64,000 bases of DNA from Prevotella aff. ruminicola Tc2-24 (GTDB lineage: Bacteria > Bacteroidota > Bacteroidia > Bacteroidales > Bacteroidaceae), in assembly GCF_900110895.1 (NCBI RefSeq), contig NZ_FOIQ01000001.1:434001-498000 (forward strand), written 5' to 3'. This document shows, piece by piece, positions 8,291 to 38,018 of this stretch (the stretch's first letter is position 1; every line of letters begins with the position of its first letter). The translations under genes were made by a program, and so were the position numbers. The notes below the pieces were generated by a model. It had not been told where the DNA came from. It saw only the letters and a list, made by a program, of their open reading frames with translations, and did not search any database.

Positions 8291-8296
8291 AGGAGG

Positions 8297-9700
8297 TTAT
8301 TGATTACTTAATTGGGCATAGAGGGTTTTGCCGGCCTCGTTCTTGGGGATGGCGGGGATGATGCGGACCTCGAAGGAGGTGGCAACGAGCTTCAGGCGGT
8401 TGACCAGCTCCTCTTTCACCCGATCCTTGTAGCTCTCGTCGGTGAGATAGACCAGCATCTTCTCATCGGTGCCGACACAGGCACACTCCAGTCCGGGGAA
8501 CGCGCCCTTCACGATACGCTCACACTCATCGAGGCCGACACGCATACCAAAGAGCTTCAGGAAACGCCCCATACGACCGACAATATAGTAACAGCCATCC
8601 TCATCGAAATAAGCGAGGTCGCCCGTACGGATAAAGCCATGACGCTCGTCACCTAAGAGCAGATCGTCACGCTTGCGGGCATAGCCCATCGTCACGTTCT
8701 TACCCCGGTAGCACATCTCTCCCTCGGTATGAGGGGTGGTGATGGGCTGACCATCCATATCGATGAGCGAGAGCTCACCATTGGGCACGGCGATACCGAT
8801 GCTACCCACCTTCTCGACGGCCCATTTAGCGGGCAACCAGGCCATACGAGCCGTACACTCCGACTGGCCGTAAGTAGCTATCCACCGCTTGCCGTTGTCA
8901 CGGCAGAACTCCGCGAACTTCAGGTTCAGTTCCTTGGTCATCCGGCCCCCACCCTGTGTCAGAAGGGTCAGGTCGGGCAGATCCATGCGGAAGAACCGCA
9001 TGAGGTTCAATATCTCAAAGCTATAGGGCACACCCGTAAAGCTCGTGGCATGCTCCTCTTTCATGAACCGCCAGAAGTTCCGGTCGGTCATGCTCTGATT
9101 GGTAATCAAGATGGTTGCTCCGACATAGAGATGACTGAACACCATCGACAGCCCCATCGTGTAATACAACGGCAGCACCATCAACGGGCGGTCATTCTCT
9201 GTCAGTTCGAAGAACGTGGAGATATTCAAGGCTGCCGCCTCGATATTCGCGTATTGGTGGCGCACCAGCTTCGGACTGCCCGTAGAACCACTCGTCGGCA
9301 ACAGGTGAGACAGATCCTCATGCAACGGACACGCCTCACAACCTGTCTTCATCAGCGTATAACCGAAACACGTCAAGACGACCTCATAGTCGAACCGCTC
9401 GGCCATCGCCTCAGGCATACAGACGAAAGGCGGCTGATAGAGCTCAAAGAGACTCTTATATAATCCTTCGTCCAGATGTGCGTTCAGAATGAGCGGCACG
9501 TTCCCTGCACAGATATTCCCGATGGTCCATGCGATGCCCCCCACATTGTTCTCCACCAACAGGAAGAACAACGACCGGGCCGGCATCAGCATCCCGGCTT
9601 GTACCGCAAAGTCACGCAGTCCGCCATACGTCAGTTGGCTACCCTGCGCATCGATGGCAGCCACCGCCTCATGCTGCCATTTATCTAAATTTAAAATCAT
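8297..9700 (-). CDS. AMP-dependent acyl/aryl synthetase (acyl-ACP ligase candidate)
   Basis: 467-residue ANL-superfamily adenylating enzyme. P-loop PTSGSTGSPK is at about 135-144, then YGQSECTARM, RTGDLAYFDEDG, the hinge region GRMGRFLKLFGMRV, and the C-terminal PKNEAGK with the likely catalytic Lys. It activates a carboxylic acid as the adenylate and transfers it to a thiol. At 467 residues it is shorter than typical CoA ligases (about 500-550). With an ACP gene directly downstream I infer loading onto that ACP. GC-rich. The acid substrate cannot be read from sequence. Confidence 0.85.
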   Translation of the reverse strand: MILNLDKWQHEAVAAIDAQGSQLTYGGLRDFAVQAGMLMPARSLFFLLVENNVGGIAWTIGNICAGNVPLILNAHLDEGLYKSLFELYQPPFVCMPEAMAERFDYEVVLTCFGYTLMKTGCEACPLHEDLSHLLPTSGSTGSPKLVRHQYANIEAAALNISTFFELTENDRPLMVLPLYYTMGLSMVFSHLYVGATILITNQSMTDRNFWRFMKEEHATSFTGVPYSFEILNLMRFFRMDLPDLTLLTQGGGRMTKELNLKFAEFCRDNGKRWIATYGQSECTARMAWLPAKWAVEKVGSIGIAVPNGELSLIDMDGQPITTPHTEGEMCYRGKNVTMGYARKRDDLLLGDERHGFIRTGDLAYFDEDGCYYIVGRMGRFLKLFGMRVGLDECERIVKGAFPGLECACVGTDEKMLVYLTDESYKDRVKEELVNRLKLVATSFEVRIIPAIPKNEAGKTLYAQLSNQ

Positions 9701-9714
9701 CTATCAACAAACCA

Positions 9715-10473
9715 TTAGATTGAGGCGCATCCGTCAACGCCCAGGATCTGACCCGAGATATACGACGCACGGTCGGAGGCCAGGAACGCACAGGCATTGG
9801 CGATATCCTCAGGTGTACCCAGTCTGCCAAGACCAATCCGTGAGATACGCTGGTCGATCTTCGCCCCGTCGCTCTCATAGAGCTCGGCGAAGCGCTCCGT
9901 CTTCACGATGCCCGGTGCCACGGCATTCACACGGACACCCTGCGATGCCAGTTCCTTGGCGGCCGACTTCGTGAACGACATGATAGCCCCTTTCGTGGCC
10001 GAATAAGCCGACTGTCCTGGAGAACCGAGCACAGCCGTCACCGAGGCAATGTTCACAATCGAGCCACCACCCGTCCGAGCCATCAGACGAGAGCACAACT
10101 GTACCAGTTCGATGACCGCAATCACGTTGATGCGGAACATCAGCTCCGTCTCCTGACGCACGATCATACCAATCTTCTTGTTGAACACCACGCCAGCGTT
10201 GTTCACCAACGCATCGATGCGCTTCTCAGCCTTGAAGATCGCCATCAGGGCATTCTTCACGGCCGGCGCATCCGCCACGTCGAAATACATCGGGATGACA
10301 CGGGTGTTGTTCTGCTCCGAGCACACCTTCGCCCACTCGTCCATGCTGCCCTCACGGAGATCACAGGCATAGACGATGGCACCATCAGCGGCAAACCGCT
10401 CTGCGATGCCCTTACCGATACCCTGCGCCGCACCCGTGATGATGCAAACCTTATTCTCTAAAAGTCTTTCCAT
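9715..10473 (-). CDS. Short-chain dehydrogenase/reductase (FabG-like)
   Basis: 252 residues from the ATG at 10471-10473. An in-frame ATG at 10521 exists, but it lies inside the preceding gene and adds a non-homologous stretch, so I chose the later start, which overlaps the upstream stop as TAATG. Nucleotide-binding TGAAQGIGKG begins at 13, then NNAG (91-94), Ser144, Tyr157 and Lys161 complete the SDR active site. The C-terminal ISGQILGVDGCASI fits 3-oxoacyl-ACP reductases. Probably reduces the KAS III product. Base composition changes sharply at its start: this gene is GC-rich, while the one it overlaps is AT-rich. Confidence 0.88.
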   Translation of the reverse strand: MERLLENKVCIITGAAQGIGKGIAERFAADGAIVYACDLREGSMDEWAKVCSEQNNTRVIPMYFDVADAPAVKNALMAIFKAEKRIDALVNNAGVVFNKKIGMIVRQETELMFRINVIAVIELVQLCSRLMARTGGGSIVNIASVTAVLGSPGQSAYSATKGAIMSFTKSAAKELASQGVRVNAVAPGIVKTERFAELYESDGAKIDQRISRIGLGRLGTPEDIANACAFLASDRASYISGQILGVDGCASI

Positions 10474-11225
10474 TATATTGTTAAACCTCCATCTATAACT
10501 AAAGCATGTCCCGTCAACCATGATGAAGCATCAGAAAGCAAGTAGATAATACCATACGCAATATCTGCAGGCTCACCATAACGCTTCAAAGGATACTTCT
10601 CCATGTCAAGTTTATGCTGCTCCTCAGAAATAACTCCACCATGAATAAGGTTGGTATTAACCATTCCTGGATTGACACTATTTACCCTGATCTTTTTCGC
10701 AGCCAACTCACGGGCACAGAATTTCATTGTAGAATTAAGTGCTGCTTTAGAAGCGCCATACACCCCATTACCTAGATTAAACGAAGTATTTCCTCCAACA
10801 GAGGAAACAAAAACGACAGAGGATTCTTTTGCTGTCTTCTTCTTTTTAACCAATAGTCTGAGTAACTCAACAGGAGCAAAGAAGTTCACATCGAAAACCT
10901 CATCATATTTTTCTCTTGTACAAAAAGGGAAAGGCAAAGTCATTCCTTTGCCAGCACACAAGACAATACCATCAAGAACAGGCAGACTGTCAACTAAAGA
11001 CATGACTTGCTCCGGGTCTGTCAATTCTGCCAGGATCTGTATATGTCCAGAGCCCTCTAACTGACGGTATGTTTCGTTCAAGCGCTCCTCATTCCTTGCA
11101 GTCAAAACCACTGTGGCCCCTAACTTTGAACACTGTATTGCTGTTTCCCTACCTATACCAGAAGATGCTCCTGTGATAAGGACTGTTTTACCCTCTAATG
11201 AAAACGGGTTGTAATACGCACTCAT
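10473..11225 (-). CDS. Short-chain dehydrogenase/reductase, second in the acyl block
   Basis: 250-residue classical SDR. TGASSGIGRE begins at 18, catalytic Ser141/Ser142, Tyr156 and Lys160 in YGASK, and the C-terminal GHALVIDGG is usual for the fold. NAD(P)-dependent cytoplasmic oxidoreductase. It follows the second KAS III gene with a single base between them and overlaps the next SDR by one base (TAATG), so coupled translation is likely. I infer that it reduces a 3-oxoacyl intermediate made by the neighbouring synthase. AT-rich, in contrast to the following SDR. Confidence 0.86.
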   Translation of the reverse strand: MSAYYNPFSLEGKTVLITGASSGIGRETAIQCSKLGATVVLTARNEERLNETYRQLEGSGHIQILAELTDPEQVMSLVDSLPVLDGIVLCAGKGMTLPFPFCTREKYDEVFDVNFFAPVELLRLLVKKKKTAKESSVVFVSSVGGNTSFNLGNGVYGASKAALNSTMKFCARELAAKKIRVNSVNPGMVNTNLIHGGVISEEQHKLDMEKYPLKRYGEPADIAYGIIYLLSDASSWLTGHALVIDGGLTI

Positions 11226-11226
11226 C

Positions 11227-12267
11227 CTACAATTCTACTAAATCAGAAATCACCAGTCCATCTGTCCTGAAAGAAACTGTTCCCCATGACAAGCCGACAC
11301 CAAACCCACAAGCAATATAACTTATTGGTTTGGATTCCACCTTCCCCTTCAGTTGGGTAACGATGGAGAGCGGTATTGAGGCCATGGAAGTATTTCCGAA
11401 CTCATGGAGACTATAAGGCACCTGTTCTGGCTTTGCCTTAATCTTCTTGCGGATCATCTCATTAATCATCGTATTCGCCTGATGAAGAACGAAATAATCA
11501 TAGTCTTCTGCTGTTTTCTTCTCCTCAGCCATCAGTTTCTTAATGGATTTAGGAACTATTGATATGGAAAAAGAGAAGACATCCATACCTTTCATTCGTG
11601 CCTGCATACGATGCATCATTTTACCATCTACCTCTTCCATCTTAAAGGAATCAACAGTGGCAGGATTCCGGCTACCGCCATCCGGTATGATAAGGGCATC
11701 ATAGCCACTACCATCTGTTCCTAAATGGAAGCGCATCACGTCCTCTTCAAGCCCTGTATATTCTAATGCGGTAACAGTTCCTGCAAAGCCGAACAATGGG
11801 TCAAAATCGCACTTTGCACGTTTGCGGGCATCGCCAGCCAACAACAGGGCACGTTTCATACCATGACCAGCCAAAACAGAAGAAGCTGCATTCAGTCCAT
11901 AAACCCATCCGGAGCAACCGAGAGAGATGTCCATCGCATAGCACTCCTTGCTGAGTCCCATTCGTTCCTGTAGTATACAAGATGTTGCAGGCAAGATATA
12001 GTCAGGATGCTGGGATACAAAGAAGATTCCCTCTACAGAGTCCTTTTCCCAACCGAGATCCTGAAGCAGTTTCTCTGCTGCCGCAAGGCAAAGATCAGAG
12101 GCTGCGAAATCATCAGATACATGAACCTCCTTAATACCTGTCTTTTCTATAAACTCAGAAGCATCATAGTCGGAAGAATTGATTGAATCAATCTTTGAGA
12201 CTATTTGCTTAGGAACACCTGCTGAAAAGCCAGCAATCCGGACTCCTTTTACTGTCAGCAAAGACAT
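11227..12267 (-). CDS. Beta-ketoacyl-ACP synthase III (FabH-like), second paralogue
   Basis: 346 residues with the complete triad: Cys118 in GCSG, His262 in HQAN, Asn292 in GNTS. Clearly paralogous to the gene at 6819-7877: same length class, similar HPATxxSF and MxVFSFxI regions. It is AT-rich where the other is GC-rich, so the two were probably acquired separately. Its start overlaps the end of the second ACP gene by one base. Predicted to extend a primer with malonyl-ACP for a specialised acyl group. Substrate unknown. Confidence 0.88.
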   Translation of the reverse strand: MSLLTVKGVRIAGFSAGVPKQIVSKIDSINSSDYDASEFIEKTGIKEVHVSDDFAASDLCLAAAEKLLQDLGWEKDSVEGIFFVSQHPDYILPATSCILQERMGLSKECYAMDISLGCSGWVYGLNAASSVLAGHGMKRALLLAGDARKRAKCDFDPLFGFAGTVTALEYTGLEEDVMRFHLGTDGSGYDALIIPDGGSRNPATVDSFKMEEVDGKMMHRMQARMKGMDVFSFSISIVPKSIKKLMAEEKKTAEDYDYFVLHQANTMINEMIRKKIKAKPEQVPYSLHEFGNTSMASIPLSIVTQLKGKVESKPISYIACGFGVGLSWGTVSFRTDGLVISDLVEL

Positions 12268-12497
12268 TAAAGTTTACCCTTTACGATTTGATAGAGCTCT
12301 TCAATGGTATTGGCAGCACGAATATCTTCACCTTGCAGGGTTACATCGTATTCCTCGTCCACCATAGCTATAATAGAAAGAGCAATCAGAGAGCTCCACT
12401 CATCAAGCTCCTTAAACACTGTTTCTGCCTTAATCTCACTTGCATCAGTATCATCGAACTGAGCCGCAAAATTCTCAATAAAATCTTTTAGTTCCAT
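12267..12497 (-). CDS. Acyl carrier protein, second paralogue
   Basis: 76 residues, acidic, ACP-like helices. The attachment site reads DEWSSL, so the Asp that normally precedes the modified Ser (DSL) is replaced by Ser, with Ser36 still in place. It overlaps the upstream flippase gene end by 23 bases and the downstream KAS III start by one base, a tightly coupled arrangement. Likely partner of the second KAS III and SDR. Recognition by the phosphopantetheinyl transferase is assumed. Confidence 0.85.
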   Translation of the reverse strand: MELKDFIENFAAQFDDTDASEIKAETVFKELDEWSSLIALSIIAMVDEEYDVTLQGEDIRAANTIEELYQIVKGKL

Positions 12498-13953
12498 TTT
12501 TTAATTTGCAAATAAATAAATTGAATAATACATTTTGATATACTTTAGCACTTTCAAACTTCAACATACTGGTAATCAACAAATACAATGACACAAACAA
12601 TAGTATCTGAATGAACATCACAATATATTGTTGAAGTGGTAATATCTGCCCTATAAAGTAAATCAGAACGCCTAACGCTAGGGCTATGGCTACTATTTCC
12701 TTAATATCATACAGCTGCCTCTTGATGCCATAACCTATCATCTTTTTATTTATAAATCCGTTAATAAGAAAATCGATATAAAATGTTATAGCAACAGAGG
12801 CTACCACCCCGATTACGCCGAAAGAAATACCACAAAATATCATGAAGATACCAATCAATCGCTTTGTCATCTGCATAGTTAAATACACTTTTCCTTTTCC
12901 AAGTGACTTAATAACATTCAAATTCAAACAATTAATGATATATACAACACCTGAAAGACATAAGATTTGAAAATACAAAACAGAAGCACCCCATTGAGGA
13001 CCATATAAGAGATATATAAGTGGTTTAGCTATGACAATAAGCAAAAAACACATTGGGACGCTCAGATAGGATATCGACTTAATACTCTTACTCACTCCAT
13101 TTCTCAACTTTGTCTTTTCCTCATTTAGCATAGAAAAAACAGGAAATGCGACTTGGCCGACAATCATTGATAACGCACTTGTAGGAACCTGCTCTAGTTT
13201 TCGGGCTTGTGTATAATAACCTAAGTCCTGAGGGGTAAACCATTTACCTATAATCAAACCCTGAACATTAGTATATAGAGTCTCAACAAATGATGATAAA
13301 GCCATCAATCCTCCAAAGGAGAACAAAGACTTCAATGACTGCATACTAAACTCCAAGGTAGGTCGCCATTCACTCATCTTCCAGAGAAGTATTACACTAG
13401 ATAAACTCATCACAAGTGACAAGGCCACAAGACTCCAGATGCCATATCCCATAAAAGCCATGATAATTGAAACCGTTACTCCACATAATGCAGAAACGAT
13501 ACCTCTAACAGAAAATTCCTTGAATCTTAACTGCTTTTGTAACTGAGTGGTTTGAACTAACGAGAAGGCACCAATGATCAAAGAAAGACTTTGTATCCTA
13601 AAGACTTCGCACAATAATGGCATATTGTAAAAATCAGCAATTAAGGGAGCTGATAAATACAAAATAAAATATAATATAATCGCAACAAATAAATTCCAAT
13701 AAAATACTGATGTATAATCCAAATGAGTAGGATTCTTCTTTTGTATCAAAGCTGCACCAAATCCTCCAATAATCAGGACGTCAGATAAAGCAATAAAGAT
13801 ATATAGCATACCTATATATCCGAAATCTTGAGGAGAAAGCAAACGGGCCAAAACCATATTTGACACAAATGATATCCCCAAGGTTCCGAATCTGCCAACG
13901 GCACTCCATAACATAGAAGATATCGTTTGGGTCTTTATATTTTCATTTTCCAT
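12475..13953 (-). CDS. wzx: Wzx-like polysaccharide flippase (MOP superfamily)
   Basis: 492 residues, hydrophobic throughout, with roughly 12-14 predicted membrane segments. The N-terminus has the ARLLSPQDFGYIG pattern typical of MOP-family exporters. Predicted to flip the undecaprenyl-linked repeat unit across the inner membrane. It sits between the Wzy-like polymerase (11-base overlap) and the ACP gene. This supports a Wzx/Wzy-dependent pathway. AT-rich. Family firm, substrate unknown. Confidence 0.88.
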   Translation of the reverse strand: MENENIKTQTISSMLWSAVGRFGTLGISFVSNMVLARLLSPQDFGYIGMLYIFIALSDVLIIGGFGAALIQKKNPTHLDYTSVFYWNLFVAIILYFILYLSAPLIADFYNMPLLCEVFRIQSLSLIIGAFSLVQTTQLQKQLRFKEFSVRGIVSALCGVTVSIIMAFMGYGIWSLVALSLVMSLSSVILLWKMSEWRPTLEFSMQSLKSLFSFGGLMALSSFVETLYTNVQGLIIGKWFTPQDLGYYTQARKLEQVPTSALSMIVGQVAFPVFSMLNEEKTKLRNGVSKSIKSISYLSVPMCFLLIVIAKPLIYLLYGPQWGASVLYFQILCLSGVVYIINCLNLNVIKSLGKGKVYLTMQMTKRLIGIFMIFCGISFGVIGVVASVAITFYIDFLINGFINKKMIGYGIKRQLYDIKEIVAIALALGVLIYFIGQILPLQQYIVMFIQILLFVSLYLLITSMLKFESAKVYQNVLFNLFICKLKNGTKRFY

Positions 13954-15262
13954 TAGAATGATATCGGTATAAATGCTGGGGAGATGTCGTTACAACTGCC
14001 AGCATAGAAAGAAAATAAACATAAGGATAGTATAACATCCATGAACGATGCATCATAATCAAAACGAAAGTCATTAACAAAGAACATGCCATAGCTTTGC
14101 GACTACCCCGAATAAGAAACAGATAAGAGAAAATGGACAGAACCATGCCGATCCATCCGATGGCCATAATCATTCCACGATAATCAGAAAGGCAATAAGC
14201 AGAGTCATAAGCTCCAACACCTACCATCATCTCATTAAAGGACATCTTATTGTAAATGGCCAAAGGAAGATCACTGGCACGCTCATCCAATGCTTCATTA
14301 ATAGAGGAAGAAGAAGCCAATATGTCCATCACTTTCTCAAGATTGCGACCATATATGAGATAATATATCTGATCTTGAATATCAGATGGCAAGAATAGAT
14401 ATATAATATAGATGGCGAATATTGCTATTAAAACCCATTTCACTATTTTCTTCACATTCTTTATCCTAAATATGTTATGAAGCTCTGTAAAAAGGGCTAT
14501 CAAAATAAAGTTCGATGAGAAAGTCAATATGCCACATAAAACAAGCCATAAGTTAATCTTCTGGCCTTGATATCGGTCTATCAGATATATAAAACCTAGA
14601 ATGACAGCAAAATGGCCAGGTTCTTTCATCATTCCACACGCTCTATAGATAAGCATCTGGGCGGGATCCTGAATAGTGACAAACAGCCCATATACATAAT
14701 AGACATATCCTAACCTTTCATGCAAGGCTTCCTGCGGAGGAACGACGAAATGAGGAATAGATGAAATCAAGCCTACCAGACTTAATATAGATACAATGGA
14801 AGCTCCTATTGCAAAGAAAACAACAACCTTCTTGATAATTGTATAAGAACCGGTTAACAAATCTTTCGACCAGAATAAAAGAAATAATACTGGTGCAAAT
14901 ACACATATTTGCTTTACGAAATTACCAAGATTACTGGTTAAGCATATCAATAACCATATTAAATAACATAGCATTAAAATAGAGAGAAGACGATACTTCC
15001 GTACATACGAAACAGACTTAGAAAGCATCGATCCCCAAATAACACCTAATGCTGCAAATATATGTATGATAGAAGTAAAAGGGTTCCAAACAAAGATAGA
15101 GTCTATACAGACAAAGAACCATACCGCCGCAATTAAGGGCAAGACCTTGTCAATATCTCTCACATTCACTGTTGTCATTGAAGATGACGGAAAAGTTATG
15201 CTATTTGTTGTTTGTGTCATTAACGGGTAATGATATCCTTCACAAAGGATCTCATGATTCAA
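13943..15262 (-). CDS. wzy: Wzy-like O-antigen/exopolysaccharide polymerase
   Basis: Up to 439 residues with about 10-12 predicted membrane segments and a large loop around residues 185-215, the usual layout of O-antigen ligase/polymerase-like proteins. EPGHFAVIL at about 212-220 recalls the periplasmic loop of such proteins. Start uncertain: ATGs at 15262, 15220 and 15178 are all possible, and the first 28 residues look non-conserved. It overlaps the flippase by 11 bases. The role is assigned from topology and place in the locus, since polymerases are poorly conserved. Confidence 0.75.
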   Translation of the reverse strand: MNHEILCEGYHYPLMTQTTNSITFPSSSMTTVNVRDIDKVLPLIAAVWFFVCIDSIFVWNPFTSIIHIFAALGVIWGSMLSKSVSYVRKYRLLSILMLCYLIWLLICLTSNLGNFVKQICVFAPVLFLLFWSKDLLTGSYTIIKKVVVFFAIGASIVSILSLVGLISSIPHFVVPPQEALHERLGYVYYVYGLFVTIQDPAQMLIYRACGMMKEPGHFAVILGFIYLIDRYQGQKINLWLVLCGILTFSSNFILIALFTELHNIFRIKNVKKIVKWVLIAIFAIYIIYLFLPSDIQDQIYYLIYGRNLEKVMDILASSSSINEALDERASDLPLAIYNKMSFNEMMVGVGAYDSAYCLSDYRGMIMAIGWIGMVLSIFSYLFLIRGSRKAMACSLLMTFVLIMMHRSWMLYYPYVYFLSMLAVVTTSPQHLYRYHSNGK

Positions 15263-15459
15263 ATCTTCATTGGATAACCTATTACTCTCGATTTAACAGA
15301 TAGCCACACTCAACTCGCATTGGCCTAAAAACTTCAATTAGCCACATCATCATTAGTATAGTAATGCGACTCAGGCTTAGAACTGACGTTCAAAATAGCA
15401 AAGAGTGTTAGGATTCGTTGCGAGCAATAATCGAATCAGCGACAGCTGCGTGATCGCCA

Positions 15460-16539
15460 TTAACTCAGACCTAATAAGGGCTTGAGCTGGTTCTCCTTGT
15501 GGAGAATCCAGACTGAGGTGCCGAGGAAAGCCAGGAAGAGCCAGATAAGCACAATCTTAGCGCGATGGGGACCGGCCTTCTTGACGGGTACCGTAGCACT
15601 CTGCAACGTGGTGAAGGCCGGGGTCTCCTGCTGCACCTTCGCCTCGGCGGCGATGAGCTGGGCAGAGGCGGTGTTATAGGCATTGTACTGAAGCTGCATC
15701 TCATTCTCCAGATCGGTCTGCTTAGCACGGACGCTCTCGAGGATCAAGGCCTGGTTGGCATCGACGAACTCTACATAGAGCTGACGGGCATGGACATAGC
15801 GCTCACGGGCCTCACGGGCGAGCTTCTTGTTATACTCGAGATCAACACGGGCCTTCTGGGTGCGGTAGTCGGTGATAAACTTCTGCAGGCGTTCCTTCAC
15901 GCTGTCGGCCATCAAAGCACAGACCAGGGGATCCTGGTCAATCACATCGATGGTGATGACCATGGTCTTCTTGTCGACATCGCACGACACTTTCTTGTCA
16001 AGGAACTTCGCTATACGGGTCTGCTCCTTCGTGAGCTCGAAGGTGTTGATGGTGTCGGGCTGCTCCTCCTGACTGCGAAGCAGACTGAAGAGGCCACGGA
16101 CGGCCGACGACCACCAAGGACGACGCTGGCGGTCCTTCAGGTAGTCGTAGTACGAGATGCACTCGGTGCTGTCTTTCTGACGGACCTTCACGGGGAAGAG
16201 CGAGGTCTTGAAATCGACGGAGTTCATCAGGTCGGGATAGAGCGTCGGGAACAGGGCCTCAGAGCCATTACCCAAGGCACCACCAAGATTGATTCCGAAC
16301 GAGCTGGCTAAAGAGGCCAAACCTCCGACATTCTTGGTGCTGGAGAGCTCTGGGGAAAGCTTCACCGTGCAACTGTAGTAGTTGGGGATGCTGAACAAAA
16401 AGAAACAGGCGACTATGAAGGTTGCTGGGAGCACCTTATAGTAGAGACGCTTGTGTTTCTTCAAAGCTTCCCAGATCTTTGAAAAGTCGATTGAACTCTC
16501 TTCTTCAAAGTTCAATTCTTTGTTTTTATTTTCTTCCAT
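15460..16539 (-). CDS. Wzz-like chain-length determinant protein
   Basis: 359 residues. Cytoplasmic N-terminus, first membrane segment at about 35-52 (VLPATFIVACFFLF), a large periplasmic part rich in coiled coil (about 200-300), and a second membrane segment near 328-345. This is the Wzz/polysaccharide co-polymerase topology with no attached kinase domain. It sets polymer length by binding the Wzy polymerase. A 197-base spacer (15,263-15,459) to the polymerase gene contains no clear promoter. Confidence 0.86.
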   Translation of the reverse strand: MEENKNKELNFEEESSIDFSKIWEALKKHKRLYYKVLPATFIVACFFLFSIPNYYSCTVKLSPELSSTKNVGGLASLASSFGINLGGALGNGSEALFPTLYPDLMNSVDFKTSLFPVKVRQKDSTECISYYDYLKDRQRRPWWSSAVRGLFSLLRSQEEQPDTINTFELTKEQTRIAKFLDKKVSCDVDKKTMVITIDVIDQDPLVCALMADSVKERLQKFITDYRTQKARVDLEYNKKLAREARERYVHARQLYVEFVDANQALILESVRAKQTDLENEMQLQYNAYNTASAQLIAAEAKVQQETPAFTTLQSATVPVKKAGPHRAKIVLIWLFLAFLGTSVWILHKENQLKPLLGLS

Positions 16540-16858
16540 TAAAGAAAAGTTTTAAGAAAATTCTTTTTATTTGCAGGGTTGCACCCTGCAGGTTCACCAA
16601 CAACCCCAACCCCTTCTTGTCCTTAAGAAGGGACTTCGAACCACTCCCCAAACCCCTCGCCAATCATTGTCAAGGGGCTTAACCGCTCCTCCTGTCGCTC
16701 TTACATTAAGGTAAGCTGAGACCATCACAGGTCCCGCTTGTCGCTCTCGGCTGCGCATTGATGATGGTGCAGCACCCGCAATGCCTTTACGCTTCTGTCC
16801 TTCGACAGGCTCAGGGACCGCGGAGGGGGGAGTGCCCGGAGGGGGCACGAACCTCATG
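16540..16858. repeat. Gene-free spacer built of inverted repeats plus repeat element copy 2
   Basis: The 319-base spacer between the Wza-like stop and the Wzz-like start has no credible gene. It holds a perfect 8-bp hairpin (16572-16579 with 16583-16590, arms tgcagggt), a second 8-bp hairpin with arms cccttctt / aagaaggg (about 16611-16632), and an imperfect one around cccct...aagggg near 16653-16677. It also holds a second copy of the CGACAGGCTCAGGGACCG element at 16803-16820. The mixture looks like accumulated dispersed repeats. Whether it attenuates transcription between the two genes is unknown. Confidence 0.7.
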
Positions 16859-19351
16859 CTATTTGATGAGGTTCGTGACGGTGGCAATCATGGTGACCAT
16901 GGTTGCAAATGAGGAAGCCATGCCGGTAATCATCGAGATGGTCTCCTGTGCAGTGTTGGTACGGCTCGGGACGATGATCTCACAGCCAGGCTCTACCTTG
17001 CCCTTGCTGGCCTTGGACACCATACCGTTGGCATAGACGATGAAGGTGCGGCTCTTCTTGGAATGGGCACCGAAGCCACCGCCCTGGTTGACGTACCACT
17101 TCCAGCTCTTGCCGGTGCTGAAGGCCACGGTGTTGGGGAACATCACGTTGCCGTTGATCTTCACAGTACCGTTGTACTCGGGGATGATAATCTTATCGCC
17201 TTCACGGAGCACGACATCATAGTCGGAACCGGGGTTGGCCAGGGCCTTGTCGAGCTCGATACCGACGGAGTAACGTACCTCGGCGGAGTCGATCTGCTCT
17301 TCCTCGAAGCCCATGTTCTCCTTCTGCTGCTCAACGAGCTTGAGCACCTGCTTGTTACGGAACTTCTCGGCTTCGGTCATCAGGCGCTCGATACGGGCAC
17401 CACGGAGGTAGGCCTCGTCGGTGACACCACCGGCGGCCTTGACAATCTCGGAGATGCGCTGGTTCTTATGGGTCATGGTGTAGGATCCACGGAAGAGCAC
17501 CTCACCATCGATGGATACCTCGCGCTGAATCTGATAGCCGGGACTGCGGTGAACGGTCACGACATCGTAGGGCTGGAGGGTGAACGAACGGTCGCCATCG
17601 ACCACAAGACCGTCCTTCAACTGGAAGGTGTAGGTCTTGGCGATCTCCTTGGACTGACCGGTGGCCTTCGGATCGACGATACGACGGGCGACATCGACCT
17701 GGGCCATGGAGGCGGCATCGGTGAGACCGCCGGCACGGACGATGAGGTCCTCGATGGTCTCGTCGGCTGAGTACTCGAGCTCACCGCCCTGGTACACCTC
17801 ACCACGGATGGCCACGGTGTAGGCACCGGTGCGCTGGGCGTTGGAGGCGATGATCAGCTCGTCCTCGTTCTCGAGGGGGATATCGGCGGTGGTGCCGGAC
17901 ATGATACCGTCGAGATCGACGGAGATGGTACGGCGGGTGCGGTCGGCGTTCATACGACGGATGACGGCACGACCGGTGAAGGCATACTCATTGAGTCCAC
18001 CGGCAGCCTCGATGAGGGAGCGCACGGTGTTGACGCCATTGCCGAGGTCGTAGTTACCGGGATAGAACACATCGCCGGTGACGGTGACGGTGTTCTCGTA
18101 GCGCAGCGGTGTGGAGCTGACAGTGACGGAGTCGCCATCCTGGACCTTGAACGTGGTCATATCGAACTCCTGGATATTATAGCCGGAGTGCTTGTCGCCA
18201 CTGGTACGGTTGAGCTGGACGGCCTTGGTATAGGCGTCGCCCGTGAAACCGCCGGCATACTTGATCAGGGAGGCGACACTCTCGCCTTTCTTCATCTCGT
18301 AGAGCATCGGGCGCTTCACCTTACCGGCGACCTCGACGATGCAGTCGTAAGGACCGACGACGATGACGTCGTTGTCGGCCAGGCGTACATTACCGGTGAG
18401 ACGGCCGTTGAGGATATAGTCGTAGACGTCGACCACGGTGAGCTGACGACCACCACGGTAAACCTTGATGCTACGCAGCGTACCGATAGCGTTGACACCA
18501 CCTGCCATATACAGGGCGTGGAACACCGAGGCGAAGGCTGAGAGCGTATAGGTACCGGGGGCGGCGACCTCGCCCATCACGTTGACCTGGATGGTGCGGG
18601 TCTGACCGACGGTCATGCGGATCTTCGAACTGCTATAGCGCTGACCGAGCTGCTGACGGATCTTGGCCTGGGCGGCGGCAACCGTCAGACCGGCCACCTG
18701 GATGGGACCGTAGCCTGTCACGGTGACTGTTCCCTCGGGAGAGACAGAGAGGGTCTCGCTCTTCTGAGAGGCACCATAGACATCGATGACGATCTGGTCG
18801 CCCGGGCCGATGATGTAGTTGGTCGGCGTGGCGATGTTCATATTCGGCTCGAACGACAGGGTACGCTTGTTGAAGATGTCACGACCGAAGACGGGCTTGC
18901 CGTTGACGGTGTTATCCACCATGTCGGGGATATATACGTTGGGACGGCTGTCGAGATCGCTCATGTCGGTTGACATGAAGCCGTTCGTGGACGAGTAAAG
19001 CGGATTACCCTCCTCGTCGACCATCACCGATCCATTGTTCTGACGCAGTGCCGTAGAGGTGGCGGCAGAAGAACGGCTGGACGAGAAGCCCTTCAACAGG
19101 GATGACGACGAAGCGGAGGCGCCGTCGAGATCGGACACGCTGCCGCCGGCCTTCTCGTACTGGTTACGCAGGCGCTGGATCTGCTGAACGGTGGCACCTT
19201 TCTGCATCAGCTTGACAACGATCTGTGACTGACTCGTTCCAGCTTTCATCTCGCGTTGGACGTACTGGAGCACCTGACTGTCACTCATGCTCTGGGCAGA
19301 GCCCGTCAGGGCCAAGACCAGAAACGACAGGGAAAAAAGTATTCGTTTCAT
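16859..19351 (-). CDS. Wza-like polysaccharide export protein with multiple SLBB domains
   Basis: 830 residues, far longer than E. coli Wza (about 380), as is usual for Bacteroidota versions. Signal peptide MKRILFSLSFLVLALTGSAQ, then a low-complexity Ser/Ala region to about 110, a polysaccharide export domain starting near YIIGPGDQIVIDVYG, and a series of beta-grasp SLBB repeats (VNVMGEVAAPGTY, VEVAGKVKRPM, VTGDVFYPGNY, VAIRGEVYQGG, VSIDGEVLFRG, VKINGNVMFPN). A C-terminal hydrophobic stretch may anchor it. Predicted outer-membrane/periplasmic channel for the finished polymer. First gene of the leftward operon. Confidence 0.9.
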   Translation of the reverse strand: MKRILFSLSFLVLALTGSAQSMSDSQVLQYVQREMKAGTSQSQIVVKLMQKGATVQQIQRLRNQYEKAGGSVSDLDGASASSSSLLKGFSSSRSSAATSTALRQNNGSVMVDEEGNPLYSSTNGFMSTDMSDLDSRPNVYIPDMVDNTVNGKPVFGRDIFNKRTLSFEPNMNIATPTNYIIGPGDQIVIDVYGASQKSETLSVSPEGTVTVTGYGPIQVAGLTVAAAQAKIRQQLGQRYSSSKIRMTVGQTRTIQVNVMGEVAAPGTYTLSAFASVFHALYMAGGVNAIGTLRSIKVYRGGRQLTVVDVYDYILNGRLTGNVRLADNDVIVVGPYDCIVEVAGKVKRPMLYEMKKGESVASLIKYAGGFTGDAYTKAVQLNRTSGDKHSGYNIQEFDMTTFKVQDGDSVTVSSTPLRYENTVTVTGDVFYPGNYDLGNGVNTVRSLIEAAGGLNEYAFTGRAVIRRMNADRTRRTISVDLDGIMSGTTADIPLENEDELIIASNAQRTGAYTVAIRGEVYQGGELEYSADETIEDLIVRAGGLTDAASMAQVDVARRIVDPKATGQSKEIAKTYTFQLKDGLVVDGDRSFTLQPYDVVTVHRSPGYQIQREVSIDGEVLFRGSYTMTHKNQRISEIVKAAGGVTDEAYLRGARIERLMTEAEKFRNKQVLKLVEQQKENMGFEEEQIDSAEVRYSVGIELDKALANPGSDYDVVLREGDKIIIPEYNGTVKINGNVMFPNTVAFSTGKSWKWYVNQGGGFGAHSKKSRTFIVYANGMVSKASKGKVEPGCEIIVPSRTNTAQETISMITGMASSFATMVTMIATVTNLIK

Positions 19352-32391: not shown

Positions 32392-34128
32392 ATGAGGGAG
32401 TTTAATGAACTGAAAAGAATGCTGAAGAAGATGCCCGAGGGACTACCGGCATGTAAGGTGGCGCTCGTCGGAGACACAGCGACACAGTTCCTGGCAACCG
32501 CCATCCGTGGGGTCGGTCTGGAGCGTGGTTACGATATCCACCTCTATGAGGCAGAATACAACCAGGTGGAACGACAGTTCCTGGATCCCGGGAGTGATCT
32601 GTATCAGTTTGATGCCGATTTCATCGTCGTCTTCCAGTCAACCCATAAGCTCGGAGAGAAGCACAGTATGCTGGACACAGTCCAGCAGGAGTCGTTGGCC
32701 GACGACCGGTTGGCTTTCATCGCCTCGATCTGTGAGAACCCCGCACTTGCCAATAAGAAGATCATCTACTTCAACTACCCCGAGATCGAGGATACGGTCT
32801 TCGGCAGCTACGCCAATAAGGTGCGGAGCTCGCTGACCTACCAAGTGAGGAAGTTGAACACGGCCCTGATGGACCTGTCGCAGCAGTATGCGAACCTGTT
32901 TATCTGTGACATCGCCGCCCTGCAGAACAAGCTGGGGCGCGACTTCCTGTTCTCGACCAATATCTACGTCAGTACGGAGATGGTGCTCAGCGTGGATGCC
33001 CTGCCCCATGTGGCCTCGCGGGTGATGGATATCGTGTGTGCCATCAAGGGACAGTTTAAGAAATGTCTCATCCTCGACCTGGACAACACCGTCTGGGGAG
33101 GTGTCATCGGTGATGACGGACTGGAGGGTATCCAGTTAGGACATGGACTGGGCATCGGGAAGGCCTTCACGGAGTTCCAGATGTGGGTAAAGAAACTGAA
33201 GCAGCGTGGTATCATCATCTGCGTGGCCTCGAAGAACAACGAGGACACTGCCAAGGAGCCCTTCGAGAAGCATCCCGACATGGTGCTGAAGCTCGATGAT
33301 ATCGCTGTGTTCCAGGCCAACTGGGAGACGAAGGTCGATAATATCCGTACCATCCAGAGTATCCTGAATATCGGCTTCGACTCGATGGTGTTCCTCGATG
33401 ACAATCCCTTCGAACGGAATATCGTCCGAGAGAACATCCCCGGCATCACCGTGCCGGAGCTGCCGGAAGATCCCGGTGACTATCTGGAGTTCCTCTATTC
33501 GCAGAACCTCTTCGAGACGGCCTCCTACAGCAATGCCGACAAAGACCGTACAAAGCAGTACCAGGTGGAGGCCAAGCGCGTATCGCTGCAGAAGACCTTC
33601 GCCAACGAGGCTGACTTCCTGAAGTCATTGGATATGGTCTCGACGGTGAGCGGTTTCACGAAGTTCAATACGCCCCGTGTGGCACAGTTGTCACAGCGCA
33701 GTAACCAGTTTAACCTACGTACGGTGAGATATACCGAGGCCGACATCGAGGCACTGGCACAGGATCCTGAGGTCATCGACCTGAGCTTCACACTCGAGGA
33801 TAAGTTCGGTGACAACGGACTGATCGCGGTCATCATCATGAGGAAGCAGGATGCAGAGACCCTGTTCGTCGACACCTGGCTGATGAGTTGTCGTGTGTTG
33901 AAGCGCGGCATGGAGAACTTCACACTGAACACGATGGTGGAACGTGCCAAGGCGGCAGGCTATAAGCGTATCATCGGTGAGTACTTGCCCACCCCGAAGA
34001 ACAAGATGGTGGAGCAGCACTATCCCGATCTCGGCTTCCAAGTGGTGACGGGTGCAACGACCGCCCAGTACGTGTTGGATGTAGAGACTTACCAGCCCAA
34101 AGAGTGTTATATCGAGGTTAAGAAATGA
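32392..34128 (+). CDS. FkbH-like HAD-IIIC protein (acyl/glyceryl-ACP loading)
   Basis: 578 residues. N-terminal SGNH-like region (about 15-205), then a HAD domain with the DLDNT motif at 229-233 followed by WGGVIGDDG, KNN near 280 and FLDDNPFER near 335, and a C-terminal GNAT-like region (about 430-575). FkbH-type enzymes take 1,3-bisphosphoglycerate, remove phosphate and load a glyceryl unit on an ACP. An ACP gene lies three genes downstream. A good ribosome-binding site (GGAGG, 8 bases before ATG) is present. It overlaps the MaoC-like gene by 4 bases (ATGA). Strong family call; the glyceryl substrate is inferred. Confidence 0.88.
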   Translation: MREFNELKRMLKKMPEGLPACKVALVGDTATQFLATAIRGVGLERGYDIHLYEAEYNQVERQFLDPGSDLYQFDADFIVVFQSTHKLGEKHSMLDTVQQESLADDRLAFIASICENPALANKKIIYFNYPEIEDTVFGSYANKVRSSLTYQVRKLNTALMDLSQQYANLFICDIAALQNKLGRDFLFSTNIYVSTEMVLSVDALPHVASRVMDIVCAIKGQFKKCLILDLDNTVWGGVIGDDGLEGIQLGHGLGIGKAFTEFQMWVKKLKQRGIIICVASKNNEDTAKEPFEKHPDMVLKLDDIAVFQANWETKVDNIRTIQSILNIGFDSMVFLDDNPFERNIVRENIPGITVPELPEDPGDYLEFLYSQNLFETASYSNADKDRTKQYQVEAKRVSLQKTFANEADFLKSLDMVSTVSGFTKFNTPRVAQLSQRSNQFNLRTVRYTEADIEALAQDPEVIDLSFTLEDKFGDNGLIAVIIMRKQDAETLFVDTWLMSCRVLKRGMENFTLNTMVERAKAAGYKRIIGEYLPTPKNKMVEQHYPDLGFQVVTGATTAQYVLDVETYQPKECYIEVKK

Positions 34129-34547
34129 CGATTACAGAACTAGCAGAACAGACCACCCAGCTGTCGCATGTCTATCATGTGACGCCAGTGGTATATGACA
34201 GTTTCCAACGGTGCAGTGAGGATATGAACCCATTGCATACGGATGAATCGTTTGCCCGTGAGAAGGGATTCCCGGGCTGTGTGATGTACGGGAATATCCT
34301 CAATGCATTCATCTCCCATTTCGTGGGGATGTGTCTGCCGACACCGCATGTCATGATCCAGTCGCAGGACATCAGTTTCCATCAACCGGTGTTCCTGAAC
34401 GACGAGATCACCCTGCAGGCCAGCGTCGACACCGTATCCGAAGCCGTGAACATCATCAATTACAAACTGAAGTTCTACAAGACCGTTGAAACCGGCAGAA
34501 AACTGGTTGCCAAGGGTCATGTGCAGATAGGACTCTTACCCCATTAA
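34125..34547 (+). CDS. MaoC-like hot-dog hydratase/dehydratase
   Basis: 140 residues, a single hot-dog fold. The active-site pattern DMNPLH (Asp33, His38) with a following small-residue/Gly region (GFPGCVMYGN) matches R-specific enoyl hydratases and hydroxyacyl dehydratases. Acts on CoA- or ACP-bound acyl chains in the cytoplasm. Overlaps FkbH and precedes the SDR by 4 bases. Suggests that the ACP-bound unit is dehydrated or hydrated, which goes beyond plain glyceryl transfer. Confidence 0.85.
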   Translation: MTITELAEQTTQLSHVYHVTPVVYDSFQRCSEDMNPLHTDESFAREKGFPGCVMYGNILNAFISHFVGMCLPTPHVMIQSQDISFHQPVFLNDEITLQASVDTVSEAVNIINYKLKFYKTVETGRKLVAKGHVQIGLLPH

Positions 34548-34551
34548 GCCT

Positions 34552-35271
34552 ATGAGACTATTGATAACAGGAGGATCCTCAGGATTAGGGAAGGCGTTGG
34601 TAGAGACCTGTGCCGCCAATGCGGACGACCAGATACTCTTTACCTATTGCCGACATGAAGACGAGGCACAGGCACTCGTCGGCAGGTTCCAGAACGTAGA
34701 GGCCGTACAGGTGGACTTCTGCGACGAGGACAGTGTGGACCGCTTTGTCGAGCGTCTGGAGAACGAGACTGTTGATGTGCTCATCAACAACGCCTATGCC
34801 GGCAGTGCGCAGGGTACCCATTTCTACAAGACAGAGCCGGAGGCCTTTGCCGAGGCTTTCCGTTGTAATGTCATGCCGATGGTCAAGATCACCCAGGCCT
34901 GTGTGAAGGGCATGCGGAAGCGGAAGTTCGGTAAGATCATCAACATCATCACCTCGTATGTGATCGACGTGCCGCCGACAGGTTTCTCTGTATATACCGC
35001 CACGAAGGCCTACATCCGACAGTTGTCGAAGAGCATCAGTAAGGAGCTGGGACGGTTTCATATCACATCGAACTGTATCCTACCCGACTATATGCAGACA
35101 GACTTCGGGAAGGTGGAGGATTTCCAGTTGGAGCAGATGAAGGAAGTACATCCGCTGAAAGAACTGCTGAAGCCCCAGGAGGTGGCAGAGGTGGTGTGCC
35201 AGTTGCTGAAAGTCAGTCAGCAGTTGAACGGTGCTGAGATTCCCATCAATGCAGCTCAGCATATACTATAA
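34552..35271 (+). CDS. Short-chain dehydrogenase/reductase of the FkbH cassette
   Basis: 239-residue classical SDR: ITGGSSGLGKA from residue 5, NNAYAG (79-84) in place of NNAG, Ser135, Tyr148 and Lys152 of the active site. NAD(P)-dependent. Placed between MaoC and ACP, it probably reduces a 3-oxo group on the same ACP-bound intermediate. The C-terminus (LNGAEIPINAAQHIL) departs from the usual VDGG ending, so substrate binding may differ from the SDRs of the leftward operon. Confidence 0.86.
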   Translation: MRLLITGGSSGLGKALVETCAANADDQILFTYCRHEDEAQALVGRFQNVEAVQVDFCDEDSVDRFVERLENETVDVLINNAYAGSAQGTHFYKTEPEAFAEAFRCNVMPMVKITQACVKGMRKRKFGKIINIITSYVIDVPPTGFSVYTATKAYIRQLSKSISKELGRFHITSNCILPDYMQTDFGKVEDFQLEQMKEVHPLKELLKPQEVAEVVCQLLKVSQQLNGAEIPINAAQHIL

Positions 35272-35316
35272 TAGACTTGAAAAAACAAATCATAAGATAG
35301 AATATATCAACACATT

Positions 35317-35559
35317 ATGGAAAGAAAAGAAATATTTAGCAAGCTGAATGAGATTTTTATCGACGTGCTCGATCTGGACGAGGTAGAGCTGACCGACGAG
35401 ACGAGTGCCAACGATATTGAGGAGTGGGACTCACTGAGTCATATCCAACTGATTGTAGCCATCGAGAAGACCTTCGGCATCAAGTTCACGTCACTGGAGA
35501 TCATGAAGTGGAAGAATGTCGGTGAAATGGTCGATTCCATGGAGGAAAAGCTGAAATAA
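35317..35559 (+). CDS. Acyl carrier protein of the FkbH cassette
   Basis: 80 residues, acidic. The attachment site is Ser39 in EEWDSLSHIQL, a canonical DSL. Expected to receive the unit loaded by the FkbH-like protein and to hand it to the MBOAT protein. A 45-base spacer precedes it and 4 bases separate it from the MBOAT gene. Confidence 0.92.
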   Translation: MERKEIFSKLNEIFIDVLDLDEVELTDETSANDIEEWDSLSHIQLIVAIEKTFGIKFTSLEIMKWKNVGEMVDSMEEKLK

Positions 35560-35563
35560 CACC

Positions 35564-37030
35564 ATGGTCGTCAACTCCTTCAGTTTCCTGCTGTTCTTTA
35601 TAGTCGTTTTCATCGGCTATTACCTGCCGGTATGTAAGCATCATCCGCGATACCAGAACACCTGGTTGTTACTGGCCAGTTACTTCTTCTATGCCTATGC
35701 CGACCTGCGGATGATCCCGCTGCTGTTGGGATCGACGGTGGTGTTCTGGCTACTGGGACTCTGGCTGCACCGTGAGATGGAGAAAGGACACATGGAGAAA
35801 GCGTCTCGGATCACGACGCTGGCCGTTGTTCTCGGCATCGGTGTCCTGTTGTATTTCAAGTACCTGAACTTCTTCGCCGAATCGTTTGCCAGTCTGTTGC
35901 AGTCGGTGGGCTTCCATGTCAGTTGGAGCACGCTCCATATCATCCTGCCCATCGGTGTGAGCTTCTTTACGTTCAAGCTGATCAGTTATGTGATTGAGAT
36001 ACACCGGGAGCATATCACACCCTCCCGTGACCTGACGGAGTTTGCGGCGTATATCGCCTTCTTCCCCACCATTCTATCGGGACCTATCGACCGTCCTAAC
36101 AAGTTTCTGCCACAGATGCAGCGTGTGCACACCCTCGACTACAGTCTGGCCGCCGACGGTTGTCGTCAGATCCTCTGGGGTATGTTCACGAAGATGTGCA
36201 TCGCAGACAACCTGGCCGTGATCACCAATCAGGCATGGGGCGGCTATGACACACTGCCGACGACCATGCTGGTAGCAGCTGCCCTGCTCTACCCCATACA
36301 GCTTTATGCCGACTTCGACGGTTATTCGAATATGGCCATCGGTGTGGGTAAGATTCTCGGGTTCCAGGTGACCCGGAACTTCAACCGTCCGTTCCTGGCC
36401 CGTAACATGGCAGAGTTCTGGCGCAGATGGCATATCTCACTGACGGGTTGGATCACCGACTACGTGTATATGCCCCTGAATATCGCCTTCAGGAATATCG
36501 GACAATGGGGTATCATCCTGGCAGCGATGATCAACCTGATCCTCATCGGTCTGTGGCACGGTGCCAACTGGACCTTCGGTCTGTTCGGACTATACCACGG
36601 TCTGCTGTTCATCCCCCTGGTTCTCTCCGGTAGTATCGGGAAGAACAAGAAACTCAAGGCCAACGATCACGGTCTACCGTTCCTCAAGGACTTCCGTAAG
36701 ATGGTGGCCACCTATCTGCTGGTGTGTCTCGGACTGGTCGTCTTCCGTGCCGACAACATCGGACAGGCCTTCGGCTTCCTCCGGGCGATGGTAACGAACG
36801 GGGTTGACGGCACATCGATCATCGACCGCTACGGTATCCTGTATATCCTCTTCGGACTGCTGCTGCTGACGATCGACTGGATACAGCGGCAGAAGGAGCA
36901 TGCCCTGCAGTTGGAGGCCTTCCCCCTGCTGCGCAACCAGTACCTCAGGTTCGGGCTCTATCTGTTCATCATCCTGATGATCATCACCTTCACGGGCAAG
37001 AGTCAGGCGTTCATCTATTTCCAATTCTGA
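35564..37030 (+). CDS. MBOAT-family membrane acyltransferase (DltB/AlgI-like)
   Basis: 488 residues with about 10-12 membrane segments. The family motifs WRRWHISLTGWITDYVYMPL (around 286-305) and LWHGANWTFGLFGLYHG (near 330-345, with the catalytic His) are present. MBOAT proteins of this type carry acyl groups from a cytoplasmic carrier across the membrane to an extracellular polymer. Downstream is an SGNH protein, as in DltB-DltD and AlgI-AlgX pairs. I infer O-acylation of a surface polysaccharide with the group assembled on the adjacent ACP. Confidence 0.92.
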   Translation: MVVNSFSFLLFFIVVFIGYYLPVCKHHPRYQNTWLLLASYFFYAYADLRMIPLLLGSTVVFWLLGLWLHREMEKGHMEKASRITTLAVVLGIGVLLYFKYLNFFAESFASLLQSVGFHVSWSTLHIILPIGVSFFTFKLISYVIEIHREHITPSRDLTEFAAYIAFFPTILSGPIDRPNKFLPQMQRVHTLDYSLAADGCRQILWGMFTKMCIADNLAVITNQAWGGYDTLPTTMLVAAALLYPIQLYADFDGYSNMAIGVGKILGFQVTRNFNRPFLARNMAEFWRRWHISLTGWITDYVYMPLNIAFRNIGQWGIILAAMINLILIGLWHGANWTFGLFGLYHGLLFIPLVLSGSIGKNKKLKANDHGLPFLKDFRKMVATYLLVCLGLVVFRADNIGQAFGFLRAMVTNGVDGTSIIDRYGILYILFGLLLLTIDWIQRQKEHALQLEAFPLLRNQYLRFGLYLFIILMIITFTGKSQAFIYFQF

Positions 37031-37031
37031 T

Positions 37032-37964
37032 ATGAAGCAATTTCTCACGACGATAGCGAAATTCGGCGTACTGCTGCTGATCATGTGTGCCATCATTGAG
37101 GTGGCGCTGTTGTTCAGACCGAACATCTACGCCTATAAGAGTCAGTATATGGAGGAGCACTACAAGGAGATCAAGGTGCTTCTGTTGGGTAGCTCGCACA
37201 TCGAGGAGGCGGTGAAGCCGCAACTTGTGGGCGAAGGCACCTTCAACCTGGCGATCTCGGCCCGTCTGAGGCGCTTCGACGTGGCCCTGGCAGAGATGTA
37301 CGTGCCGAAGATGGACAGTCTGAAAGCCCTCGTGATGCCGGTGGACTACACGAACTTCTTCTTCGAGCGACAGTACGAGAACCCGAACACGAAATCGGTG
37401 GCAGAGGACCTGTCGGGCACCTGTCGTTGCATGCACATGAAATACATGGGGGTACGGGTGGATCCGTTGTGGTACTGGCCCGAGATCCTCAACTCCAAGC
37501 TGAACTTCATGCAACGGTTCTGGAACGACCGGGAGACCCTGCAGGAATGCGACTCTTTGGGTTACGTGAAGCTCGACATCCAGAAACGTCCTGCCGACTG
37601 GGACATGCGGGCTATCCCTGCCCTGATAGACAGTACGAAGGTGATCGACCAAGAACAGTATGACAAGGCCTTCGACCAGTTTGAACGAGTGGCGAAGGTG
37701 ACCTATGAGAAAGGGGTGCGACTCGTACTTGTGGCACCGCCCGTATACAAGACGTACCAACAATATATCAACCCTGTGGTACTGAACGACATCCACATGT
37801 TCGTGGCAAAGCTACAGGCTAAGTATCCGAACGTGGAGTACCATGAGAGTCTCTTCGCCGAAGGCTTCGAGGCCAGTGACTTCCAGGACGCAAGTCACCT
37901 CAATGATGCCGGTGCGGAGAAATACTCGCGGATGCTCGCGGACATCATCTATCCTCATTTGTAG
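37032..37964 (+). CDS. SGNH/DltD-like exported acyl-transfer partner
   Basis: 310 residues. N-terminal membrane anchor at about 8-27, then an extracytoplasmic SGNH-type domain: GSSH (53-56, Ser54 as likely nucleophile) and C-terminal DASHLN with Asp286 and His289 completing a triad. The start follows the MBOAT stop by one base. By analogy with DltD, AlgX and PatB it probably transfers the group delivered by the MBOAT protein to the polymer, or removes it. Overall similarity to named members is low, so the family call rests on motifs and context. Confidence 0.75.
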   Translation: MKQFLTTIAKFGVLLLIMCAIIEVALLFRPNIYAYKSQYMEEHYKEIKVLLLGSSHIEEAVKPQLVGEGTFNLAISARLRRFDVALAEMYVPKMDSLKALVMPVDYTNFFFERQYENPNTKSVAEDLSGTCRCMHMKYMGVRVDPLWYWPEILNSKLNFMQRFWNDRETLQECDSLGYVKLDIQKRPADWDMRAIPALIDSTKVIDQEQYDKAFDQFERVAKVTYEKGVRLVLVAPPVYKTYQQYINPVVLNDIHMFVAKLQAKYPNVEYHESLFAEGFEASDFQDASHLNDAGAEKYSRMLADIIYPHL

Positions 37965-37990
37965 GTATTTATCGCGACTTGTGACCAGAT

Positions 37991-38005
37991 GCAACCCGGT
38001 TGCAA
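37991..38005. promoter_or_regulatory. 15-bp palindrome upstream of feoAB
   Basis: TGCAACCCGGTTGCA, perfect 7+1+7 inverted repeat, 13 bases before the -7 element. It is followed by a nine-T run at 38008-38016, so it could be an operator for feoAB or part of a weak terminator for the preceding cassette. Confidence 0.5.
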
Positions 38006-38018
38006 GTTTTTTTTTCGT

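Follow-up and report, generated by a model that had tools for sequence, protein, structure and literature searches.

A putative carrier-protein-dependent surface acylation cassette with an FkbH-type loader in Prevotella

Within the 64-kb stretch of contig NZ_FOIQ01000001.1 of Prevotella aff. ruminicola Tc2-24 that we have analysed (positions 434,001 to 498,000, hereafter the window), six plus strand open reading frames (ORFs) spanning 32392-37964 probably encode a Gram-negative, Dlt-like system for acylation of a surface polymer, dependent on an acyl carrier protein (ACP) and with an FkbH-type enzyme replacing DltA. A preliminary description of this DNA had placed six same-strand genes here and read them as carrier-based acyl export, in which a hydroxyacyl unit of three or more carbons would be made on the ACP and passed to an MBOAT-SGNH pair. 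The genes lie exactly at those coordinates, and the export of a short ACP-borne acyl unit loaded by FkbH is now supported by evidence from protein families, catalytic residues, predicted fold, phylogeny and co-occurrence.

The cassette and its catalytic parts

The components of the cassette, in the order of transcription, are:

32392..34128, + strand: FkbH-type glyceryl-ACP synthase, 578 aa, with FkbH_N, a HAD-IIIC phosphatase domain and a C-terminal acyl-transfer part with Cys500
34125..34547, + strand: MaoC hydratase/dehydratase, part 1 of the tailoring module, 140 aa, 4-base overlap with FkbH
34552..35271, + strand: SDR reductase, part 2 of the tailoring module, 239 aa, 4-base gap after MaoC
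35317..35559, + strand: dedicated ACP, 80 aa, with an EEWDSLSH motif, 45-base gap after SDR
35564..37030, + strand: DltB-like MBOAT, 488 aa, with its own C-terminal hexapeptide FIYFQF, 4-base gap after the ACP
37032..37964, + strand: membrane-anchored DltD-like SGNH acyltransferase, 310 aa, with Ser55, Asp286 and His289, 1-base gap after MBOAT

The loader matches both FkbH_N (PF21211, E=2e-87) and TIGR01686 (E=1.3e-91) above their cut-offs, and aligns with BF1531 of B. fragilis (PDB 3SLR, E=2e-176), a protein mentioned in none of the open-access papers searched. It has the sequence features of a glyceryl-ACP synthase, namely FkbH_N, the HAD-IIIC DxD (Asp229/Asp231), the conserved cysteine (Cys500, in MSCRV) and an ACP partner, and these aspartates and the cysteine are invariant in 106 of 106 aligned relatives. 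The ACP (PF00550, E=9e-10) carries its phosphopantetheine site at Ser39 of the EEWDSLSH motif, conserved in 102/102 relatives. FkbH makes glyceryl-ACP out of 1,3-bisphosphoglycerate in tetronate pathways (PMC7489565), and by analogy with the rest of its family the cassette enzyme would load glycerate from the same donor. Genes of this kind are rare: of the good genomes, 9 of 169 in the family and 13 of 389 in the phylum have one.

The exporter matches PF03062 (E=1e-14), the DltB model TIGR04091 (E=5e-57) and the solved DltB structure 6bug (E=6e-34). Since its TIGR04091 score is 193.7 bits and the equivalog cut-off is 375, we consider it a relative of DltB and not DltB itself. The hexapeptide FIYFQF occupies residues 483-488 and includes Tyr485. 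The tyrosine of such FXYXXF motifs bears the acyl group in PatA and DltX, where the acyl-Tyr shuttle is proven (PMC12148441). The motif was found near the C-terminus of all 88 FkbH-linked MBOATs, both the catalytic His332 and Tyr485 are present in 87/87 relatives, and His290 is invariant too. The last protein of the cassette has no Pfam match, and its identity comes from the motifs GSSH (Ser) and DASH (Asp/His), of which Ser55 and His289 are invariant in 23 relatives, together with the predicted fold. A structure predicted from these 23 relatives (pLDDT 86) gave DltD as the top PDB match in Foldseek (3bma/7dxm/6pfx, E=1.5e-5), followed by PatB (7tlv). The TM-scores for DltD are modest (about 0.4), and we therefore call the protein DltD-like and not DltD.

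The phylogeny of the exporter suggests that it depends on a carrier. In a FastTree phylogeny of 163 MBOAT sequences, 76 form a single clade with support 100, all of them adjacent to an ACP. None of the 21 members of the sister clade is ACP-adjacent, and these include second MBOATs lying in the very same loci. The DltA-linked MBOATs are placed elsewhere, as a separate lineage. Five FkbH-linked MBOATs (L091, L097, L098, L132 and L134) fall outside the 76-member clade, which suggests that MBOATs have been recruited to FkbH more than once. When 76 MBOAT ORFs from 60 related genomes were typed, an ACP was seen to adjoin only five outside the FkbH cassettes, three in DltA-type operons and two in ACP-MBOAT-SGNH sets lacking an adjacent loader (L142 and L243, both inside the ACP clade). 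Among these 60 relatives the ACP clade is confined to four: G000, G020 and G035 match FkbH strongly, and G032 encodes a protein with a distant FkbH domain.

L142 (G000:C8:752523-755131) belongs to the window's own genome, which therefore holds two ACP-MBOAT-SGNH sets with MBOATs of this clade; the neighbours of L142 are glycosyltransferase-like and AT3-like genes. A single FkbH may load two ACPs for two exporters in this genome. In L085 and L099, two or three MBOATs surround one FkbH cassette, only some with an ACP of their own, and could be exporter arrays served by one loader, as far as gene content tells. Elsewhere in the genus, other genomes carry DltA-type sets (AMP ligase-ACP-MBOAT-SGNH): L237, L240 and L242, with the C-terminal motifs FWYGAF, FFYGNF and FIYIQF, respectively, represent apparent Dlt-type acylation in Bacteroidota.

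Conservation and exchange of modules

We have used the FkbH protein to scan genome contigs, recovering 80 loci of which all ORFs were then searched with profiles. Their hosts are mostly Prevotella-type bacteria of rumen and gut, but members of Mucilaginibacter, Flavobacterium, Dysgonomonas, Chryseobacterium and Chitinophagaceae, and one Fibrobacteria metagenome-assembled genome, were also found. Prevotella sp. khp7 and tf2-5 and Chryseobacterium defluvii are among the cultured carriers. An ACP gene was detected near FkbH in 77 loci; for MBOAT the figure is 72 and for SGNH 70, and 66 loci hold all four core genes. The commonest form is a simple FkbH-ACP-MBOAT-SGNH order (22 loci), while 9 loci have FkbH-VOC with SGNH-MBOAT-ACP on the opposite strand and 7 the window order FkbH-MaoC-SDR-ACP-MBOAT-SGNH. 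As gene order and strand vary, the linkage is more than frozen synteny. A chance adjacency of the six genes was rejected, since distant relatives have the core with its genes differently ordered and oriented; a viral origin was also discarded, with no relative among viral contigs. A second sample, drawn by FkbH-domain searches, comprised 26 genome loci; an ACP accompanies 25 of them and an MBOAT 15, most of the MBOAT-less loci having distant FkbH proteins. By sequence, the conserved unit is FkbH-ACP-MBOAT-SGNH. The complete six-gene set, whose conservation in Bacteroidota the preliminary description had proposed to look for, appears in only 14 of the 80 loci, as one form within a broader family.

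The tailoring genes between loader and exporter are often exchanged. None is found there in 33 loci, a VOC (methylmalonyl-epimerase-like) gene in 26 and MaoC in 21, of which 18 also have the SDR; VOC and MaoC are never found together (0/80, naive probability 5e-5, a figure that ignores relatedness). An extra methyltransferase appears in 6 loci and a split transketolase, a thiamine pyrophosphate enzyme, in 5, every one with MaoC (L041, L042, L043, L068 and L076); this last association points to lengthening of the carbon chain held on the ACP. In the FkbH tree, the state of the tailoring module switches at least 28 times, and nearly identical FkbH proteins may carry different modules, as in L024 (MaoC and SDR) versus L026 (VOC). 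Even at the chromosomal site of the window cassette, L022, L023 and L053 are devoid of MaoC and SDR. Going by these comparisons, MaoC-SDR is a module exchangeable for a VOC protein or for nothing.

Both proteins of the module have family signatures, MaoC (PF01575, E=2e-13) with D33, N35 and H38 conserved in 24/24 and the SDR (PF00106, E=6e-34) with TGxxxGxG, Tyr148 and Lys152 conserved in 22/22. A plasmid of Subdoligranulum (Bacillota; L267:5899-10374) carries FkbH-ACP-MaoC-SDR followed by an apparent GNAT, with no MBOAT in the stretch read. The gene content of this set indicates that MaoC and SDR use the FkbH/ACP product irrespective of export; the GNAT would draw on that acyl-ACP in the cytoplasm. 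The core is also present in some Alphaproteobacteria. Rhodobacteraceae SC52 has ACP-FkbH-MBOAT (FIYFNF)-SGNH-like (GSSR, DAAH)-VOC, and pSymB of Sinorhizobium meliloti has VOC, MBOAT (FLYQGF), a protein without recognised family, ACP and FkbH. In S. meliloti 1021 the FkbH match on pSymB (L270:9209-11091) is split over two frames near residue 361; it is whole in other strains of the species.

Proposed route and its alternatives

These observations taken together make it likely, with good confidence, that the general route runs from FkbH-loaded ACP to MBOAT and on to SGNH-mediated export. The direction of flow, the acyl group and the acceptor are those that we infer in the following scheme. D-glycerate from glycolytic 1,3-bisphosphoglycerate would be put on the ACP by FkbH. 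MaoC would then dehydrate glyceryl-ACP across C2-C3 to enol-pyruvyl/pyruvyl-ACP, which the SDR would reduce to lactyl-ACP. The MBOAT would carry the acyl group from the ACP across the membrane onto Tyr485, and the DltD-like protein would accept it on Ser55 and esterify a surface glycan. Lactyl as the product of the MaoC-SDR variant is a tentative assignment, somewhat short of an even chance. In the loading module of bryostatin, FkbH, ketoreductase and dehydratase reportedly combine to give D-lactate, which we take as a lead only. A table entry in PMC7901079 lists FkbH giving D-lactate-ACP. The other variants of the cassette would keep the plain glyceryl (no module), epimerise it at C2 (VOC), methylate it or extend it. 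The methyltransferase variant would yield O-methylglycerate, the product thought to be made by FkbH-O-methyltransferase modules in some aeruginosins (PMC10143770).

Several points weigh against this scheme or parts of it. The catalytic Ser135 of the SDR aligns in just 13 of 22 relatives, and the MaoC and SDR families usually act on 3-hydroxyacyl and 3-oxoacyl thioesters. No glycosyltransferase that would hint at the acceptor adjoins the window cassette. Some loci (L064, L072 and L090) have an ACP and no MBOAT within the sequence examined, several such loci being at contig ends, and the ACP-clade MBOAT of G032 (L243) comes with only a distant FkbH-domain protein.

With the same export route, the exported group could be plain glyceryl, if MaoC and SDR act elsewhere, or an (R)-3-hydroxyacyl such as 3-hydroxybutyryl, built on the ACP through reduction and hydration steps like those of fatty-acid synthesis. 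The PDB likenesses of MaoC (3-hydroxyacyl-thioester dehydratase 2 and R-specific enoyl-CoA hydratase), the resemblance of the SDR to FabG-type ketoreductases and the predominance of the module-free form among the loci make this a serious contender, if a little less than an even bet. However, none of the 80 loci was seen to have a ketosynthase between its loader and its exporter, the constant partner is FkbH, a loader of three-carbon units, and MaoC-SDR accompany FkbH-ACP even without the exporter.

Another alternative would separate the two halves of the cassette, FkbH and ACP serving to N-acylate a nucleotide sugar in the cytoplasm, with MBOAT-SGNH as an ordinary acetyl-CoA-dependent O-acetyltransferase that is adjacent by accident. 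Elsewhere, FkbH-ACP sets do occur that lack an MBOAT and have a transferase of apparently cytoplasmic type (GNAT, WcbI-type), and related ACP-less MBOATs exist in the same genera. We nevertheless consider it unlikely: the cassette has no such transferase, the ACP-linked MBOATs form their own clade, which excludes ACP-less MBOATs even of the same locus, and ACP-MBOAT-SGNH remain together when apart from FkbH (L047-type loci, L142 and L243). A small molecule, tetronate or polyketide-like, is a very improbable product. Characterised FkbH enzymes do come mostly from polyketide and peptide pathways (PMC7489565, PMC10143770), but the constant partner here is the export pair, and neither the window nor any of the 80 loci, as we typed them, has a polyketide synthase (PKS), nonribosomal peptide synthetase or FabH-like ring-forming gene in or beside the cassette. 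A polyketide product was rejected on this count.

Chromosomal setting

The cassette is flanked by a SecA-ABC pair and by feoAB, with these other features in the window:

37990..38012, + strand: terminator-like hairpin and T run at the end of the cassette, with the terminator-like site at 37990-38004 parting it from FeoAB
165-19351, - strand: capsule/exopolysaccharide operon with a Wza-like SLBB protein, Wzx, two KAS III, an AMP-binding enzyme, two SDRs, a small ACP, and DHDPS-like, ATP-grasp and octopine-dehydrogenase-like proteins

FeoAB, downstream, likely starts at the ATG at 38064. The cassette looks like an insertion, since in the relative G064 the ABC gene and feoAB are only about 107 bases apart. 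Sites of sigma-70 type were no more frequent than in shuffled sequence, and the Bacteroidetes-type promoter pattern gave a match before SecA (28018) and none before FkbH.

The leftward operon looks like the maker of a sugar of unusual kind, N-acylated or decorated with amino acids, and has acyl-activating genes of its own, besides its small ACP (7927-8166). That the cassette acts on the glycan of this operon, as once suggested, is unsupported and we have abandoned the coupling: in G020 the cassette occupies the same place in the chromosome and no Wza-type operon lies beside SurA, and the operon has its own acyl activation. In G064 neither is there.

Comparison with known systems

Considered as a family, these cassettes have about an even chance of being a new class of carrier-dependent surface acylation in Bacteroidota and Alphaproteobacteria, in which three-carbon acids from glycolysis would enter via FkbH and be diversified on the ACP by interchangeable VOC, dehydratase and reductase (lactyl), methyltransferase and transketolase-like modules. 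If true, surface polymers would bear a combinatorial set of small hydroxy-acids, and the swappable tailoring genes predict which small acid each strain displays. This would be relevant to the surface chemistry of gut bacteria, to phage recognition and host recognition, and to the search for enzymes that place glycerate or lactate esters on polysaccharides. In the open-access papers searched, which take in few subscription journals, we found no link of FkbH with MBOAT/SGNH polymer acylation, and a prior description is possible. The lone paper found with both FkbH and MBOAT deals with aeruginosins, in which each works on its own portion of the peptide (PMC10143770).

The nearest solved structure to the cassette ACP by sequence is 2LML (E=2e-17), which we take to be GmACP3 of Geobacter metallireducens. 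The title of the GmACP3 structure paper, as cited in PMC4847154, proposes a role in lipopolysaccharide biosynthesis. With the FkbH/ACP glycerate operons (tetronates, methoxymalonyl-ACP) the cassette has in common FkbH, a stand-alone ACP, an expected glyceryl-ACP and, in some variants, a methyltransferase; there, however, the acyl group goes to a PKS or to a ring-former of FabH type, whereas here it is apparently exported by MBOAT-SGNH. The O-acetylation systems PatAB, AlgI-AlgJ-AlgX and WssHI share an MBOAT with its own C-terminal FXYXXF and an SGNH protein, but take acetyl-CoA as donor and have no carrier, while the cassette has an ACP and a loader. Pathways of MBOAT/SGNH type other than Dlt are described as lacking a carrier protein (PMC12148441), and the cassette family would be a clear counter-case to this model in Gram-negatives.

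The Dlt pathway of teichoic-acid D-alanylation (DltA-DltC-DltB-DltX-DltD) has in common with the cassette a dedicated carrier, an SGNH protein of DltD type and, as far as the genes of the cassette tell, the logic of cytosolic loading, an acyl-Tyr shuttle and extracellular transfer; the MBOAT of the cassette resembles DltB but scores below the equivalog cut-off. It differs in its AMP-forming loader DltA, in whose place the cassette (with no AMP-binding gene) has the HAD-type FkbH with an expected phosphoglycerate donor. It also differs in the separate DltX microprotein: no small DltX-like FXYXXF gene is present in the cassette, where the motif sits at the C-terminus of the MBOAT. Finally, the hosts of the cassette are Gram-negative and tailoring enzymes for the ACP-bound unit are included. 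The built-in acyl-Tyr motif of PatA and AlgI would be paired with a carrier and a phosphoglycerate-type loader, with no adenylation. Each step of the proposed route has a known analogue; what is combined with the Dlt logic is loading by FkbH, a shuttle motif within the MBOAT itself and tailoring modules that can be exchanged.

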